Assembly (NCBI GenBank): GCA_902796555.1 | Contig: CADBPR010000101.1 | Coordinates: 1 to 32,446, forward strand | DNA from: an uncultured Bacteroidia bacterium | Lineage (GTDB): Bacteria; Bacteroidota; Bacteroidia; Bacteroidales; UBA932 | Direction: 5' to 3' | Length of the DNA stretch: 32,446 bases | In this document: positions 4,985 through 27,247 of the stretch, piece by piece | Layout of the letters: each line of letters opens with the position of its first letter | Numbering within the stretch: the stretch's first letter is position 1 | Translations under genes and position numbers: made by a program | The notes under the pieces: generated by a model | What the model saw: the letters and a program-made list of their open reading frames with translations, nothing else | Database searches by the model: none | What the model was told of the DNA's origin: nothing

Positions 4985-5002
4985 TTTCGTTTTGTTTCAT
5001 TT
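4985..5002 (+). promoter_or_regulatory. Candidate AgaR operator overlapping the agaR promoter
   Basis: The 18 bases TTTCGTTTTGTTTCATTT match every position of TTTCRTTTYRTTTYNYTT, the core of the E. coli AgaR operator consensus as I remember it (not checked here). A shorter related copy, CGTTTTTGTTTCA at 4964-4976, lies 24 bases upstream. The site covers the TTTG -33 element of the regulator's own promoter, as expected for autorepression. It also lies in the shared 146-base region between the divergent kinase and regulator genes, so it could control both. Confidence 0.6.
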
Positions 5003-5022
5003 CAAAATATTACCTATCTTTG
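4991..5022 (+). promoter_or_regulatory. Bacteroidota-type promoter of the agaR-like gene
   Basis: TTTG (4991-4994), a 20-base spacer and TATCTTTG (5015-5022) form a complete primary-sigma promoter of this phylum. Transcription should start around 5026-5030. This decides the start codon: ATG 5048 leaves a normal short leader, whereas an in-frame TTG at 5033 would sit almost on the transcript end. Confidence 0.8.
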
Positions 5023-21125: not shown

Positions 21126-22403
21126 ATGGAAGACAACAAAAATGGCGGTTATACCGCAGAAGGCCGGAAATTAAGGTCGAGACGACCCAGGATTTCCCGC
21201 GCAGCATCCTCCTCCGACGAGCGTCCGCAACAGGCACGCCCCTCCGGAGAGAGAAGAACCTATGGAGAACACAGAAGTTACGGCGAACACAGAAACTACT
21301 CCGACCGTCCCCGGCGCAGTTATGACGAAAGCCGCGGCAATGCCTTCGCTGACAACCGGAGTTTCCGGAGCGAAGAGGAAGGCGGTCGTACCTATGGTGA
21401 AAGAAGAAGTTATGGCGAGCGCAGAAGCTATGGCGAAGGCAGAAGTTACGGAGAAGGCAGAAGCCGCGGCGAGGGCCGTCCGAACGGAGAGCGCCGCAGT
21501 TTCGGCGAAGGCCGCAAGGGTCCCCGTCCGCAGGGCGGACGTCCCCATGCCAAAGGCGCCGCACCCAAACGGGGGGTCAATAAGAAATCGGCCGCTGCGG
21601 AAGGCATCAACCGCATGATCAGCCGCAAGCCCCAGGTGGACCAGATACAGTATTCCGACAACGACCAGGCCCCGACCCTGTTCCAGGAAGAGGTGCGCCT
21701 CAACAAGTTCATCGCCAATTCGGGCGTGTGCTCCCGTCGTGAGGCCGACCAGATGATTCAGGCCGGTGTCGTGACGGTCAACGGCGAGGTCGTGACCGAA
21801 CTGGGTACCAAGGTGAATGTGCTGAAGGACGAAGTGAAGTTCAACGGCGAACGCCTGAAAGGCGAGGAAAAGGTCTACATCGTGATGAACAAGCCGCGCG
21901 GCTATGTCACCACCGCCAGCGACCCCCATGCCGAAAAGACGGTGATGGACCTGCTGAAGGGCTGCCAGTACCGGGTGTTCCCGGTCGGACGCCTGGACAA
22001 GAACACCACCGGCGTGCTGATGTTCACCAATGACGGCGAGATGGCCGAGCGCCTGACCCACCCGTCCTACGACAAGAAGAAGATCTACCAGGTGACCCTG
22101 GACAATCCGCTGACCCAGGAAGATTTCGACAAGATTACCACCGGCATCCTGCTGGGCGACGGCGAAATCAAGGCTGACGAACTGGAATACATCGACGAGA
22201 ACGACCACCGCAAGCTCGGCATCGAAATCCACTCGGGCAAGAACCGCATCGTGCGCCGGATTTTCGAATCCCTGGGCTACGACGTAAAGGCCCTGGACCG
22301 CGTCTATTTCGCCGGCCTGACCAAAAAAGGCGTGAAAAAAGGCGAATGGCGCTACCTCTCCGAGGGTGAGGCCAACGTTCTGAAAATGGGAGCATACCTG
22401 TAA
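21126..22403 (+). CDS. rluB: RluB/RsuA-family 23S rRNA pseudouridine synthase with a repeat-rich N-terminal extension
   Basis: This 425-residue protein has an S4 RNA-binding domain (~188-235: VRLNKFIANSGVCSRREADQ...) and a pseudouridine synthase domain. The active-site motif is GRLDKNTTGVLMFTNDG with Asp291 as catalytic residue. The first ~180 residues are basic and low complexity, with about 6-residue units of the type ERRSYG / EGRSYG. I chose ATG 21126 because an upstream in-frame ATG (21054) lies inside tonB. The stop shares a base with the era start (TAATG). The substrate is most likely a helix-loop uridine in 23S rRNA. Assignment to RluB over other RsuA-type enzymes rests on context and family only. 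Confidence 0.88.
   Translation: MEDNKNGGYTAEGRKLRSRRPRISRAASSSDERPQQARPSGERRTYGEHRSYGEHRNYSDRPRRSYDESRGNAFADNRSFRSEEEGGRTYGERRSYGERRSYGEGRSYGEGRSRGEGRPNGERRSFGEGRKGPRPQGGRPHAKGAAPKRGVNKKSAAAEGINRMISRKPQVDQIQYSDNDQAPTLFQEEVRLNKFIANSGVCSRREADQMIQAGVVTVNGEVVTELGTKVNVLKDEVKFNGERLKGEEKVYIVMNKPRGYVTTASDPHAEKTVMDLLKGCQYRVFPVGRLDKNTTGVLMFTNDGEMAERLTHPSYDKKKIYQVTLDNPLTQEDFDKITTGILLGDGEIKADELEYIDENDHRKLGIEIHSGKNRIVRRIFESLGYDVKALDRVYFAGLTKKGVKKGEWRYLSEGEANVLKMGAYL
21246..21516 (+). repeat. In-frame 18-bp tandem repeats encoding (E[RGH]RSYG)n
   Basis: Within the rluB-like gene, two blocks of 18-base units (about three units near 21246-21300 and six to seven near 21390-21516) encode ERRTYG/EHRSYG and ERRSYG/EGRSYG/EGRPNG-type hexapeptides. 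Third-codon positions differ between copies, so the array looks old and selected at protein level. Confidence 0.75.
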
Positions 22404-23302
22404 TGGCGGAAGGCACGGTACAGAAGCACAAGGCGGGATTTGTCAACATCATCGGGAACCCGAATGTCGGCAAATCCACCTTGATGAACGCCCTTGTGGG
22501 CGAGAAACTCTGCATTGTGACCAGCAAGGCGCAGACCACGCGCCACCGCATCATGGGCATCATGAACGGGGAGGATTTCCAGATTGTCTATTCCGACACC
22601 CCGGGCATCCTGAAGCCCAGCTACCGCCTCCAGCAGAACATGATGAATTTCGTGGACACCGCCATCGGTGACGCGGACATCATCCTGTATGTGACGGATA
22701 CGGTAGAACAGAGTGACAAGAACGCGGACTACATCGCCAAGCTGAAGAAGGTGGAGTGCCCCATCATTCTGGTGATCAATAAAATCGACATCAGCGACCA
22801 GCCGACCGTAGTGCGGCTGATGCAGTGGTGGGCCGAACAGCTGCCCCAGGCGGTCATCTTCCCGGTGTCCGCCCGCGAGAAATTCAACTTGGAGAACATC
22901 TACCAGGCCATCCTGGAACGTCTCCCGGAGGCCCCGGCCTGGTTCGACAAGGACCAGTTCACCGACCGCAACCTGCGTTTCTTCGCATCGGAAATCATCC
23001 GGGAGAAGATTCTGCTGAACTACGACCAGGAAGTGCCCTACAGCTGCGAAGTCGTAGTAGAGGCGTTCAAAGAGGGCGAAAAACGCTATGATATCAGCGC
23101 TGTCATCTATGTGATGCGGGACAGCCAGAAGGGCATCCTGATCGGCAAGGGCGGCGCCGCGCTGAAAAAACTCGGCACCGAAGCCCGGATTGAGATGGAG
23201 GATTTCTTCCAGAAGAAGGTCTTCCTCAATCTGTTCGTGAAAGTGGACGAGGACTGGCGGACCAGCCGCCGGGAACTGAGGAAATTCGGATACGAAGACT
23301 GA
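22403..23302 (+). CDS. era: GTPase Era
   Basis: This 299-residue GTPase has G1 GNPNVGKST (18-26), G3 DTPG (65-68), G4 NKID (126-129), SA[RK]-type G5 in FPVSARE, and a C-terminal KH domain with GKGGAALKKLG. Era binds the 3' end of 16S rRNA and takes part in late 30S maturation. It starts on the last base of the rluB stop codon (TAATG). The gene is full length and typical. Confidence 0.95.
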   Translation: MAEGTVQKHKAGFVNIIGNPNVGKSTLMNALVGEKLCIVTSKAQTTRHRIMGIMNGEDFQIVYSDTPGILKPSYRLQQNMMNFVDTAIGDADIILYVTDTVEQSDKNADYIAKLKKVECPIILVINKIDISDQPTVVRLMQWWAEQLPQAVIFPVSAREKFNLENIYQAILERLPEAPAWFDKDQFTDRNLRFFASEIIREKILLNYDQEVPYSCEVVVEAFKEGEKRYDISAVIYVMRDSQKGILIGKGGAALKKLGTEARIEMEDFFQKKVFLNLFVKVDEDWRTSRRELRKFGYED

Positions 23303-23312
23303 GATTAATAAC

Positions 23313-23319
23313 AGGAGGT
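23313..23319 (+). promoter_or_regulatory. parC: Strong Shine-Dalgarno sequence before parC
   Basis: AGGAGGT ends 4 bases before the ATG at 23324. It is a perfect anti-SD match, whereas the other starts in this window lack one. Bacteroidota starts usually rely on A-rich contexts. Confidence 0.75.
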
Positions 23320-23323
23320 AAGC

Positions 23324-26311
23324 ATGCGTGACGAATGGGACGACATCCCGCAGGAAATGGATGAGGAAGACGCCGAGCAGCAGCCGGTTCAGGAGACCGA
23401 TGCCCGCACTTCGGGCAAATTTGCCAAACTGCTGGGCGAGGACAGCCGGAAGTTCAAGCTCTCCGGCATGTTCAAGGACTGGTTCTTGGACTACTCTTCC
23501 TATGTCATTCTGCAACGGGCCGTTCCGCATATCGTGGACGGACTCAAGCCGGTGCAGCGCCGGGTGCTCCACGCCATGTGGCGAATGGACGACGGACGGC
23601 TCACGAAGGTGGCCAATATCGTCGGACAGGCGATGCAGTTCCACCCGCATGGTGACGCCAGTATCCTGGGCGCCCTGGTCCAGCTGGGCCAGAAAGGCTA
23701 TGCCATTGACTGCCAGGGAAACTGGGGCAACATCCTGACGGGCGACAGCAATGCCGCCGGCCGATACATCGAGGCCCGGCTCAGCAAGTTCGCCAAAGAA
23801 GTGGTTTTCGACCCGAAAATCACCAACTGGATGACCTCCTACGACGGCCGCAACCAGGAACCGACCGAATTGCCGGTGCGCTTCCCGCTGCTGCTCGCAC
23901 AGGGCACGGAAGGCATTGCCGTGGGTATGGCCTCCAAGATTCTGCCCCACAACTTCAACGAGTTGCTGGACGCTTCCATCGCCATCCTGAAAGGGGAACC
24001 GTTCGAGCTTTATCCCGACTTCCCGACCGGCGGTTTCGCCGATTGCTCGAAATACATGCAGGGCCAGCGGGGCGGTACGGTCAAGGTCCGCGCCCGGATT
24101 GAGAAGCTGGACAAGAACACGATTGCGATTACCGAAATCCCTTACGGCAAGACCACCCATGTGCTGATTGACTCCATCCTGAAAGCCAAGGACAAGGGGA
24201 AAATCAAGATTAAGAAGATCGAGGACATGACCACCTCCAAGGTGGACATCGTGATTCATCTGCCCAACGACGTGTCGCCGGACAAGACGATTGACGCCTT
24301 GTACGCCTTCACGGACTGCGAAGTGACGATTAACCCGAACGCGTGCGTCATCAAGGACAACAAGCCTGAATTCATGACGGTCAACGCGATTCTGGAGTAC
24401 AACACCGAGCACACCAAAGACTTGCTGGGCAGGCAGTTGCAGATTCGTCTGGACGAACTGGAAAACGAGTGGCACTACGACTCCCTGGAGCGTATCTTCT
24501 TCGAGGAGGGCGTGTACAAGATTCTGGAAGAGACCCGGCACAAGACCTGGGAGGAGCAGAAACAGGACATCCTGGACCGTATGCTCACCTACCAGCACCT
24601 GGTCCGCCGCGCCATCGTGATGGAGGACATCGACAAGCTCGTGGAGAAGCCGGTGCGCAAGATTTCCAAGTTCGACGCCAAGGCGATGGACGAAAAGATC
24701 CGTTCCATCGAAGAGCAGATGGAGGCCGTGAAATACGACCTGGCCCATCTGGTGGCGTATACCATCAACTGGTTCGAGGGCTTGAAGAAGAAGTACGGCG
24801 ACAAGTTCCCGCGCCTGACCGAAATCACCAGTTTCGAGACGATTGCCGCCACGAAGGTGGTGAACAACAATGCCAAACTCTACGCGAACCTGGAAGCCGG
24901 CTTCGTGGGCATCGGCCTGAAGGCGGCGGACGGCGGCACCTTTGTCAGCGAGTGTTCCGACCTGTCGGAAATCATCATCATCGGCAAGGACGGCCGCTAC
25001 AGCGTGGCCAAGGTCAGCGACAAAGCCTTCTTCGGGGAACACCTGCTCTATGCCGGCGTGTTCAACCGGGGAGACGAGCGGACCATCTACAATGTCATCT
25101 ACCGGGACGGCAAGGCCGGCGCTTATTACGCCAAGCGTTTTGCAATCACCTCCGTCACCCGTGACAAGGAATACAACATCACCCCGGGTACACCCGGGTC
25201 TGAAATCGTCTGGTTCACGGTCAACCACAACGGTGAGGCCGAGACGGTGCGGGTTCAGCTGCGCCCGAAGGCCAAACTGAAGAAAACCAGTTTCGAGTAT
25301 GACTTCTCGACCCTGGCCATCAAGGGCAAGGCGGCCCGGGGCAACCTGGTGACCAAAAACCCGGTCCGCAACATCCAGCTGCGGTCCAAGGGTATCTCGA
25401 CCATCAGCGGCAAGGACATCTGGTACGACGCCGATGTCCAACGGCTCAACGAGGATGCCCGCGGCCTGTACCTGGGCCAGTTCGAGGCGGAAGACAAGGT
25501 GCTGGCCATCTTCACGAACGGCACCTACTATACGACCAGTTTCGACCTCAGCAACCGTTACCAGGGCGACGTGCTCCGCATCGAAAAATTCGACGAGGAC
25601 AAGACATGGACGGCCCTGTACTGGGACGCCGTTGCCAAAGCGTTCTATATCAAGCGTTTCTCCTTCGTATTGAGCGACAATACGGCCCTGCCGTTCATCT
25701 CGGACGCCAAGGGTTCCTATCTGGTGGCCATTTCGGACGACCTGCACCCGCAGGTGGTGGTCACATTCGGTGGAAAATACGCCGCGCGTCCGGCGGAAAC
25801 GATTGACGCCGAAGAATTTATCGCCAAGAAAGGCCTCGCCGCCAAGGGCAAGAAATGCCACAGCTACGACCTGGCCGCTGTCGCTTTCGGCGAGCCGCTG
25901 CACAAGCCCGAAGACGATTTGCCGGAGGAGGACGCCGTGATGGACGACGATGGGGACATGCCGGAAGGAGAAGCCCCGTCGGTAAACGTTGATTCCGCGC
26001 AGACGGCCGGCGACAGCGCTGGGGAAAGCTCCGCGGCAACAGACGACGATGGGGCAGCGGGCAAGGATTCCGATGCGGCAGCGGCGGATATCCCGGAAGC
26101 AGCGGTTTCCGGCCCGGCAGCGGGTACGGATACAGCGGCGCCGGGCGAAGCGGTAAACCTTACCGATATCCTCGAAGCCCCGATAATGGATGTTCCGCAG
26201 ACACCTGCCGAACCCGCCAAAAAGCCAAAAAAAGGCGCCCGGGCCGGTGATATCATCGACCTGTCGATAGACGACATCCCTGACGATGAACCGACCCTCT
26301 TCGACCTTTGA
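23324..26311 (+). CDS. parC: DNA topoisomerase IV subunit A
   Basis: This 995-residue subunit has the breakage-reunion domain (~45-530). The catalytic Tyr is Tyr148 in DSNAAGRYIEARLS, the helix-turn-helix region has MQFHPHGDASILGALVQ (~104-120), and a beta-propeller C-terminal domain extends to about residue 850. A ~130-residue acidic, Ala/Asp-rich tail follows and ends in DEPTLFDL. The gene decatenates daughter chromosomes together with ParE, which is not in this window. I call ParC over GyrA from the Bacteroidota ParC-type DNA-gate sequence and lack of a GyrA box in the propeller. It overlaps queH by 26 bases. Confidence 0.9.
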   Translation: MRDEWDDIPQEMDEEDAEQQPVQETDARTSGKFAKLLGEDSRKFKLSGMFKDWFLDYSSYVILQRAVPHIVDGLKPVQRRVLHAMWRMDDGRLTKVANIVGQAMQFHPHGDASILGALVQLGQKGYAIDCQGNWGNILTGDSNAAGRYIEARLSKFAKEVVFDPKITNWMTSYDGRNQEPTELPVRFPLLLAQGTEGIAVGMASKILPHNFNELLDASIAILKGEPFELYPDFPTGGFADCSKYMQGQRGGTVKVRARIEKLDKNTIAITEIPYGKTTHVLIDSILKAKDKGKIKIKKIEDMTTSKVDIVIHLPNDVSPDKTIDALYAFTDCEVTINPNACVIKDNKPEFMTVNAILEYNTEHTKDLLGRQLQIRLDELENEWHYDSLERIFFEEGVYKILEETRHKTWEEQKQDILDRMLTYQHLVRRAIVMEDIDKLVEKPVRKISKFDAKAMDEKIRSIEEQMEAVKYDLAHLVAYTINWFEGLKKKYGDKFPRLTEITSFETIAATKVVNNNAKLYANLEAGFVGIGLKAADGGTFVSECSDLSEIIIIGKDGRYSVAKVSDKAFFGEHLLYAGVFNRGDERTIYNVIYRDGKAGAYYAKRFAITSVTRDKEYNITPGTPGSEIVWFTVNHNGEAETVRVQLRPKAKLKKTSFEYDFSTLAIKGKAARGNLVTKNPVRNIQLRSKGISTISGKDIWYDADVQRLNEDARGLYLGQFEAEDKVLAIFTNGTYYTTSFDLSNRYQGDVLRIEKFDEDKTWTALYWDAVAKAFYIKRFSFVLSDNTALPFISDAKGSYLVAISDDLHPQVVVTFGGKYAARPAETIDAEEFIAKKGLAAKGKKCHSYDLAAVAFGEPLHKPEDDLPEEDAVMDDDGDMPEGEAPSVNVDSAQTAGDSAGESSAATDDDGAAGKDSDAAAADIPEAAVSGPAAGTDTAAPGEAVNLTDILEAPIMDVPQTPAEPAKKPKKGARAGDIIDLSIDDIPDDEPTLFDL

Positions 26312-26888
26312 CCTGCCCGCACCCGGTGAACGGGTCCTGCTGCATGCCTGTTGTGCGCCCTGCAGCGGTGCGATTGTGGAATATCTGGTCCGAGGGGGCG
26401 TGTCCCCGGTGATTTTCTATAGCAATGCCAACATCTTCCCCCGGGCGGAATATGAGATTCGGCGCGATGAATGTCGCCGTTATGCCGACTCCTACGGCCT
26501 GGAACTGGTGGAAGACCTGTACGACCATGCCGCGTGGCTGGAGGCCGTCCGCGGACTGGAGCAAGAGCCGGAACGGGGCGGACGCTGCCTGCAGTGTTTC
26601 CGTTTCCGCCTGGAACGCGCGGCCCGCTACGCCAGCGAGCAGGGATTTACGCTCCTGACCACCACCCTCGCCTCCTCCCGTTGGAAAAGCCTGGACCAGG
26701 TCAATGCGGCCGGAGAATACGCCTGCAGCCGTTACCCCGGGGTCACCTGGTGGCCGCGCAACTGGCGGAAGGGAGGTCTGCAGGAACGGCGCGGAGAAAT
26801 CATCCGCGAACAATGCTTCTATAACCAGCAATACTGCGGCTGCGAATTCAGTTTCCGCGACCGGGAATCTGTTTCGCCTCTCAGATAA
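26286..26888 (+). CDS. queH: Epoxyqueuosine reductase QueH
   Basis: This 200-residue protein has the QueH (DUF208) cysteine pattern. It runs LLHACCAPC near residues 18-26, GGRCLQCFRFRLERAA mid-protein and CFYNQQYCGCEFS near the C-terminus, plus the SRWKSLDQV segment. QueH is the iron-sulfur replacement for QueG and makes queuosine from epoxyqueuosine in tRNA anticodons. Its ATG lies inside the last 26 bases of parC; no later ATG would keep the first Cys motif intact. It ends the plus-strand operon. Confidence 0.93.
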   Translation: MNRPSSTFDLPAPGERVLLHACCAPCSGAIVEYLVRGGVSPVIFYSNANIFPRAEYEIRRDECRRYADSYGLELVEDLYDHAAWLEAVRGLEQEPERGGRCLQCFRFRLERAARYASEQGFTLLTTTLASSRWKSLDQVNAAGEYACSRYPGVTWWPRNWRKGGLQERRGEIIREQCFYNQQYCGCEFSFRDRESVSPLR

Positions 26889-26907: not shown

Positions 26908-26954
26908 AAAAAAACGCGGGCGGCCCGCGGCAAAAATGCCAGGACCACCCGCGT
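26908..26954 (-). terminator. GC-rich Rho-independent terminator after the 45-aa ORF
   Basis: On the minus strand ACGCGGG pairs with CCCGCGT. Several further GC/GU pairs lie inside a loop that includes GGC-ATTTTT-GCC, and T7 follows directly. There is no T-run on the plus side, so it acts on minus transcripts. Confidence 0.85.
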
Positions 26955-26977
26955 TGCAGCTTAGGTTTCGAAACGGA

Positions 26978-27115
26978 TCAGCTCCAAGAGGCGATGCGCT
27001 CGCGGACCAGCCGGAAAGAGGAGGTATACCGCGGCTGCGCCTTCTGGTTCTCAGCAGGCAGAACCTGTCGGGACGGGTTCTGCACCGCACGTGTCGAAAG
27101 GTTTTCGTTTTTCAT
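26978..27115 (-). CDS. Unlisted 45-residue basic small protein
   Basis: The reading frame begins ATG AAA AAC GAA and runs 45 codons to TGA. It starts MKNENLSTRAV and ends FRLVRERIASWS. It has two Lys and six Arg against three Glu, no signal peptide and no transmembrane segment. A short C-terminal amphipathic helix is likely. It is framed by a perfect promoter (TTTG-N20-TACCTTTG, 28-59 bases upstream) and a strong terminator 24 bases after the stop. The ATG is preceded by an A-rich TATAAATT context, as in well-expressed Bacteroidota genes. I do not recognise the family. A regulatory small RNA with an incidental frame is an alternative. Confidence 0.6.
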   Translation of the reverse strand: MKNENLSTRAVQNPSRQVLPAENQKAQPRYTSSFRLVRERIASWS

Positions 27116-27142
27116 AATTTATAGTAGTTCGTTCTTCTGACA

Positions 27143-27174
27143 CAAAGGTACAATCCCCTTCGAAAACGGCCAAA
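27143..27174 (-). promoter_or_regulatory. Perfect promoter for the 45-aa ORF
   Basis: On the minus strand TTTG (complement of 27171-27174), a 20-base spacer and TACCTTTG (complement of 27143-27150) match the Bacteroidota consensus exactly. The predicted leader to the ATG is about 20-25 bases. Confidence 0.8.
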
Positions 27175-27247
27175 CGAATGTGGCAAAGTCCCCGAAAGCG
27201 ACGTAATTTTTCGCGAAAGTGGCGAAATTGCCCGATTTTGGGTGAAA
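27175..27247. other. Short region with a TTTCGCGAAA palindrome between the small ORF and menA
   Basis: This 73-base stretch has a perfect 10-base palindrome TTTCGCGAAA at 27209-27218. CGAAA recurs at 27161, 27193, 27214 and 27223. It lies upstream of the small ORF's -33 element and downstream of menA, so it could be an upstream regulatory site or part of a menA terminator. I see no T-run that settles this. Confidence 0.4.

Follow-up and report, generated by a model that had tools for sequence, protein, structure and literature searches.

A 45-codon frame beside queH appears to belong to a lineage-restricted family of small basic proteins in Bacteroidales, with a conserved promoter and upstream direct repeats

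We analysed a 32,446-nucleotide stretch of DNA from an uncultured Bacteroidales bacterium (the window) and found that a 45-codon frame between queH and a menA-like gene has homologues in two related genomes, G293 and G307, where it is likewise preceded by a Bacteroides-type promoter and direct repeats. By sequence comparison the frame is most likely a protein gene, and it would belong to a small and new protein family that looks real, has a control region of its own and appears to be restricted to a lineage. The best reading of the whole, to which we assign a probability of about 0.6, is a lineage-restricted, regulated, basic small protein that would dock on RNA, the ribosome or another protein. 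The features of the locus are as follows.

26286..26888 (+): queH, epoxyqueuosine reductase (Pfam QueH PF02677, E 2.6e-59), convergent to the small gene in all three genomes
26908..26955 (-): intrinsic terminator with a 19-bp stem, one bulge, a UUUU loop and T7
26978..27115 (-): small gene, most likely protein-coding, MKNENLSTRAVQNPSRQVLPAENQKAQPRYTSSFRLVRERIASWS; 45 codons, stop included; homologues in G293 and G307 with frame-following substitutions
26981..27034 (-): conserved C-terminal codons PRYTSSFRLVRERIASWS, with PRYxSSFRLxRxR in three of three
27143..27174 (-): promoter TTTGGCCGTTTTCGAAGGGGATTGTACCTTTG; -33 element TTTG at 27171-27174, 20-base spacer, -7 element TACCTTTG at 27143-27150
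27178..27187 (-): proximal direct-repeat box TTTGCCACAT, centred at about -46 from the inferred transcription start
27217..27226 (-): middle direct-repeat box TTCGCCACTT, at about -85, offset upstream by 39 bp from the proximal box
27241..27246 (-): distal half-box TTCACC, at about -105, just past the menA-like stop codon and 20 bp above the middle box
27178-27246 (-): whole box region in the window; the homologue box regions, also upstream of promoters, are in loci L143 and L163
27248..28156 (-): menA-like UbiA-family gene (PF01040, E 4.6e-22), upstream of the small gene and on the same strand

The name menA-like follows the preliminary description of this DNA, and the Pfam evidence is for the UbiA family. 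That description had placed a unit of about 230 bases between queH and menA, and the Pfam assignments of the two neighbours agree with this. The distance from the -33 element through the last T of the terminator is 267 bases, the expected transcript is about 230 bases, and the leader, counted from the inferred start, is about 20 bases. A 22-base spacer separates the 45-codon frame from the 19-bp hairpin. The frame is intact, as had been claimed, and a stop closes it one codon upstream of the ATG (the open frame is 46 codons), so the small ORF cannot be longer. An inverted repeat, GCAGAACC...GGTTCTGC, lies within the small ORF at 27058-27083 and is missing at that place in the aligned homologues.

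The gene was found in three of 400 sampled genomes of the genus, its own included: that of the window, G293 (44 aa) and G307 (41 aa). Note that the 400 are a sample of a larger genus and that many are incomplete. A tBLASTn search of relatives had been proposed as a check, and it yielded the homologues in two stages. The single sequence found G293 at E 8.1e-8, and a profile built from the window and G293 found G307 at E 2.4e-6; with the single sequence G307 scored E 0.11 and was recognised only by the profile. The single-sequence search returned matches at E<=1 in 90 of the 400 genomes, among which G293 alone, besides the window, fell below 1e-3. When 101 genomes (own included) were searched by single-sequence tblastn, 19 matched at E<=10 and, the window excepted, none scored below 0.06.

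The two-row profile matched 19 places in 18 of the 400 genomes. Three of these are the family, and the other 16 lie at E 0.0016 to 0.05. Eight weak matches from this search and the two single-sequence searches (L003, L018, L119, L122, L147, L153, L156 and L159) were rejected, all eight being located within longer open frames (175 to 719 codons), either on the opposite strand or in a different register. Five more (L117, L120, L126, L138 and L150) were rejected as none has the conserved core, and the remaining weak matches were covered by a three-sequence profile run on the retrieved loci rather than one by one. The sole extra match among 178 genomes of the order, a sample that excludes G293 and G307, was in G519; it falls inside a 587-residue ORF that is read in a different frame, and was put down to chance. 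Scanned with the three-sequence profile, 47 further genomes of the genus showed no additional member at their queH loci, some of these loci being cut short by a contig end. A pattern scan of genome contigs, which used only the variable N-terminal half and is blind to G307-like members, found one locus; it lies on a contig from a roe-deer rumen Bacteroidales MAG and includes the G293 locus without any change.

At the DNA level, the intergenic stretch matched 149 of 200 genus genomes at E<=1. Among the matches listed, all were short, and outside the genome of the window the best had E 0.0047. Sixteen of these loci were inspected and set aside as short chance or coding matches, save a promoter look-alike (L028). 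The small protein had no relative in Pfam, NCBIfam, PHROGs, PADLOC or PDB at E<=1, a search in which a 45-residue query may miss distant relatives. Phage and plasmid records likewise gave no match at E<=1, and one peptide pattern scanned against viral contigs gave seven stretches, none confirmed. The absence of relatives in PHROGs, PADLOC, phage and plasmid records and viral contigs argues against a phage or defence small protein. The strings PRYISSFR, FRLVRERM and FRLVRERI were not found in the literature searched, which does not prove their absence from print. Lineage-restricted small proteins are a known kind, and this family is absent from the libraries searched. Global smORF catalogues exist, for example GMSC for microbiome small proteins, which in the excerpted text of PMC11364881 also consist of small frames of unknown function.

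We compared the three proteins (45, 44 and 41 aa) and found that all contain RxVL, an E and PRYxSSFRLxRxR. Between the window and G293, the differences at first, second and third codon positions numbered 13/10/25 for the 44 codons compared and 0/1/7 for the final 18. In the last 18 codons dN was 0.05 and dS 0.60, and the N-terminal half diverges fast, with a dN of 0.65. Over all aligned codons the dN/dS values of the three pairs were 0.36/1.34, 0.69/2.45 and 0.54/1.01, only moderately below 1; the estimate, made in the ORF's own codon frame, is coarse with three sequences. We consider it very probable that the gene is translated and under purifying selection.

The product might instead be an RNA, either a small RNA or a transcript antisense to the convergent queH, and the frame incidental; we consider this very unlikely. 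Such an RNA would suit the short unit and the strong terminator, and the folded transcript is more stable than its shuffles (z -4.7), though the terminator alone reaches z -6.7. An antisense role would also suit the convergence with queH in three of three genomes, and in G307 the small frame and the 3' end of queH share 43 bases. However, the consensus fold of the three sequences is weak (-7.74 kcal/mol, with an unfavourable covariation term of +2.33), both sides of a pair changed at three of 20 pairs, and many pairs are broken. Further, the window gave nothing in Rfam at gathering thresholds (best sub-threshold match E 0.077), G293 and G307 have no comparable terminator, and the differences concentrate at third codon positions. 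In the excerpted text of PMC7366714, intergenic sRNAs of Bacteroides thetaiotaomicron such as GibS likewise have their own start site and an intrinsic terminator; the small gene differs from these in that its reading frame is conserved and no such conservation is seen for a fold. The preliminary description had named a conserved RNA structure over a non-conserved frame as the mark of a small RNA, and we found the reverse: the frame and the peptide core are conserved in two relatives, and no common RNA fold is seen among the three sequences. A protein gene is therefore most likely, given the conserved frame and the substitutions that follow codons, with no conserved RNA fold seen.

The strong hairpin with T7 that had been reported was confirmed in the window, where it is far more stable than shuffled sequences (-36.6 kcal/mol, z -6.7). 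When the 500-base region was scanned with a plain terminator pattern, the hairpin was the one site returned, against 0.9 in shuffles. Since this is the chance level, it is stability and not pattern that singles out the hairpin. No strong terminator was found 3' of the homologues in the stretches examined (z +0.6 for G293 and -1.1 for G307). In G293 no terminator was detected on the small gene's strand downstream in the stretch examined, and in G307 one 5-pair site lies about 390 bases past the gene, within chance. Thus, the description of the locus as a self-contained transcription unit holds for this genome but not for the homologues in the stretches examined.

A MenA + QueH tree was built from 28 of the 30 genomes that have MenA loci, leaving out G101 and also G014, in which queH is partial. 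The window and G293 were joined with support 100, and the placement of G307 was poor (37), so that the tree favours neither gain nor loss. G175, G319 and G197 fell near the window's lineage with weak support (37 in IQ-TREE, 0.13 in FastTree), and no small gene was seen at their queH loci. The gene is thus dispensable, as only three of 400 genus genomes carry it and the queH loci of these near relatives are without it. In G293, as in the window, the small gene is directly downstream of the menA-like gene, and the MenA of G293 scored best after the window's own (81%). In G307 the upstream neighbour is not menA but a divergent gene, which we take by eye to be uvrC. The link with queH has therefore outlived a change of upstream neighbour, although three cases are too few to claim, from gene order, a functional tie between the small gene and queH. 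In G293, but not in the window or G307, a 201-residue ORF (L161 880-1485 (+)) separates the small gene from queH; its FG-GAP match is weak (E 0.0021) and under the curated cut-off.

A young or decaying gene, translated but nearly neutral, could have survived in three genomes by chance. The narrow distribution (three of 400), the fast N-terminal divergence and the queH loci of close relatives, where the gene was not seen, are all compatible with this. However, PRYxSSFRLxRxR is intact in all three proteins at C-terminal synonymous divergences of 0.60, 0.89 and 1.13, and the promoter and boxes have survived the change of upstream neighbour. We regard chance survival as unlikely and favour a gene that is maintained by selection.

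The perfect TTTG-N20 promoter of the preliminary description is present on the minus strand, and a like promoter precedes both homologues, with spacers of 20, 19 and 19 bases in the three genomes. The window has two copies of the exact pattern TTTG-N20-TANNTTTG, where 0.03 would be expected, and none of 100 shuffles reached that number. The other exact match is at 4991-5022 (+). The sigma-ABfr promoter consensus of Bacteroides, as given in the excerpted text of PMC7366714, has TTTG at -33 and TAnnTTTG at -7, and both elements are matched in all three genomes. The promoter is, as judged by its letters, of the main Bacteroidales type and the ordinary Bacteroides kind, with a predicted start. In comparison with the sigma-ABfr promoters of that text, the promoter here has phased direct-repeat boxes upstream, for which we found no match to a known regulator. 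About 24 bases at 27141-27164 are 92% shared with a stretch inside long ORFs of other genomes (L035 and L041), which was judged to be chance.

The boxes were absent from the preliminary description. Two direct repeats, TTYRCCACWT, lie upstream of each promoter, 39, 40 and 39 bp apart in the three genomes; the proximal box starts 13, 14 and 14 bp ahead of the start of the -33 element, and the half-box TTCACC lies 20, 21 and 20 bp above the middle box. The box centres are accordingly at -46, -85/-86 and -105/-107 in all three genomes, counted from an inferred start that is assumed to lie 6 bases after the -7 element. The box pairs of the window and G307 match at 36 of 40 positions, and the best of 300 mononucleotide shuffles reached 28; this statistic was devised after the repeats were seen and describes rather than tests.

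We scanned eight genomes with a looser pair pattern and obtained 14 places in seven of them against 12 in a reversed control; both full boxes were present at three of the 14 places, which are the three family loci. A combined box-plus-promoter pattern occurred at 12 places in five of the eight genomes and nowhere in the reversed control, and by eye the second box is present only at the three family loci. Counts of the single box TTYGCCACWT and of its reversed control were 9 and 24 in the window's genome (G000), 11 and 17 in G307, and 14 and 5 in G293. A wider regulon was therefore rejected, the single box being enriched in one of three genomes only. As the looser pair is close to control and the single box is not consistently enriched, neither a regulon nor a regulator can be named. 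A repeat in G175 (L057) is unrelated to the boxes and was dropped. The arrangement looks like a gene-specific regulatory region in which the proximal box lies where an activator would touch RNA polymerase, and we think it rather likely that the gene is regulated through the repeats.

The small protein itself could bind the repeats and thereby regulate its own gene, since the full box pair is found only at the small gene in the three family genomes and travels with it. However, no helix-turn-helix or other DNA-binding fold is predicted, only a single helix, and 45 residues are short for DNA binding, so that autoregulation seems highly improbable. A separate regulator is the reading that we prefer. 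A DNA-binding protein would read the phased direct repeats at about -46, -85 and -106 and switch the promoter, the -46 position being suited to an activator that contacts RNA polymerase. This box-binding regulator would sense a condition, upon which the small protein would be made.

The peptide had been described as basic, and this is true of all three proteins, which have net charges of +5, +5 and +6 and contain six to eight arginines. AlphaFold2, run on the three sequences, gave a single helix at residues 33-44 with a mean pLDDT of 67.5, and the product is predicted to be disordered save for this short C-terminal helix. The amphipathic C-terminal end that had been noted is present in the window, where the hydrophobic moment is 0.53 in FRLVRERIASWS, and in G293 (0.49). 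G307 ends in ...FRLSRNRND, without the last hydrophobic turn, and its strongest 12-residue segment lies elsewhere, with a moment of 0.43 and a negative mean hydrophobicity. A peptide that acts on a membrane surface through an amphipathic C-terminal helix would fit the two moments and the predicted helix but not G307, which lacks that turn while the PRYxSSFRL core stays. A membrane-surface helix is thus not a common feature of the family, and we consider this mode of action distinctly unlikely. As G307 lacks the amphipathic end, the common working part would be the PRYxSSFRL core together with the arginines.

The small protein would most likely act by docking its RxVL...PRYxSSFRLxRxR core onto a larger partner, which may be RNA, the ribosome, RNA polymerase or another protein. 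That it binds RNA or the ribosome in particular is a tentative suggestion, for which composition is the sole basis. Sra (bS22) of Escherichia coli is a 45-residue basic protein that associates with the ribosome in stationary phase and is encoded by a stand-alone gene. The small protein resembles Sra in length, basic charge and a stand-alone gene, but no sequence relation was seen in searches of Pfam, NCBIfam and PDB at E<=1, which can overlook distant relatives of so short a query. An extended reading, speculative and unlikely, is that of a clade-specific stress or hibernation factor: a family of rumen- or gut-type Bacteroidales in which a dedicated regulator would act on the triple repeat and the protein would reprogram the ribosome or RNA polymerase in one particular condition.

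The locus illustrates that comparison alone can lend support to a stand-alone 45-codon frame that was read from raw sequence. The family is a small test set whose core motif is defined and whose regulatory region is conserved, and the boxes offer a direct handle, as the protein that binds them would tell when the gene is used and hence its possible purpose.

Elsewhere in the window, a 1183-residue open frame at 22352-25903 (-) runs antisense to most of a 995-residue gene at 23324-26311, presumably parC as labelled by eye. This antisense frame is probably a by-product of high G+C codon usage.
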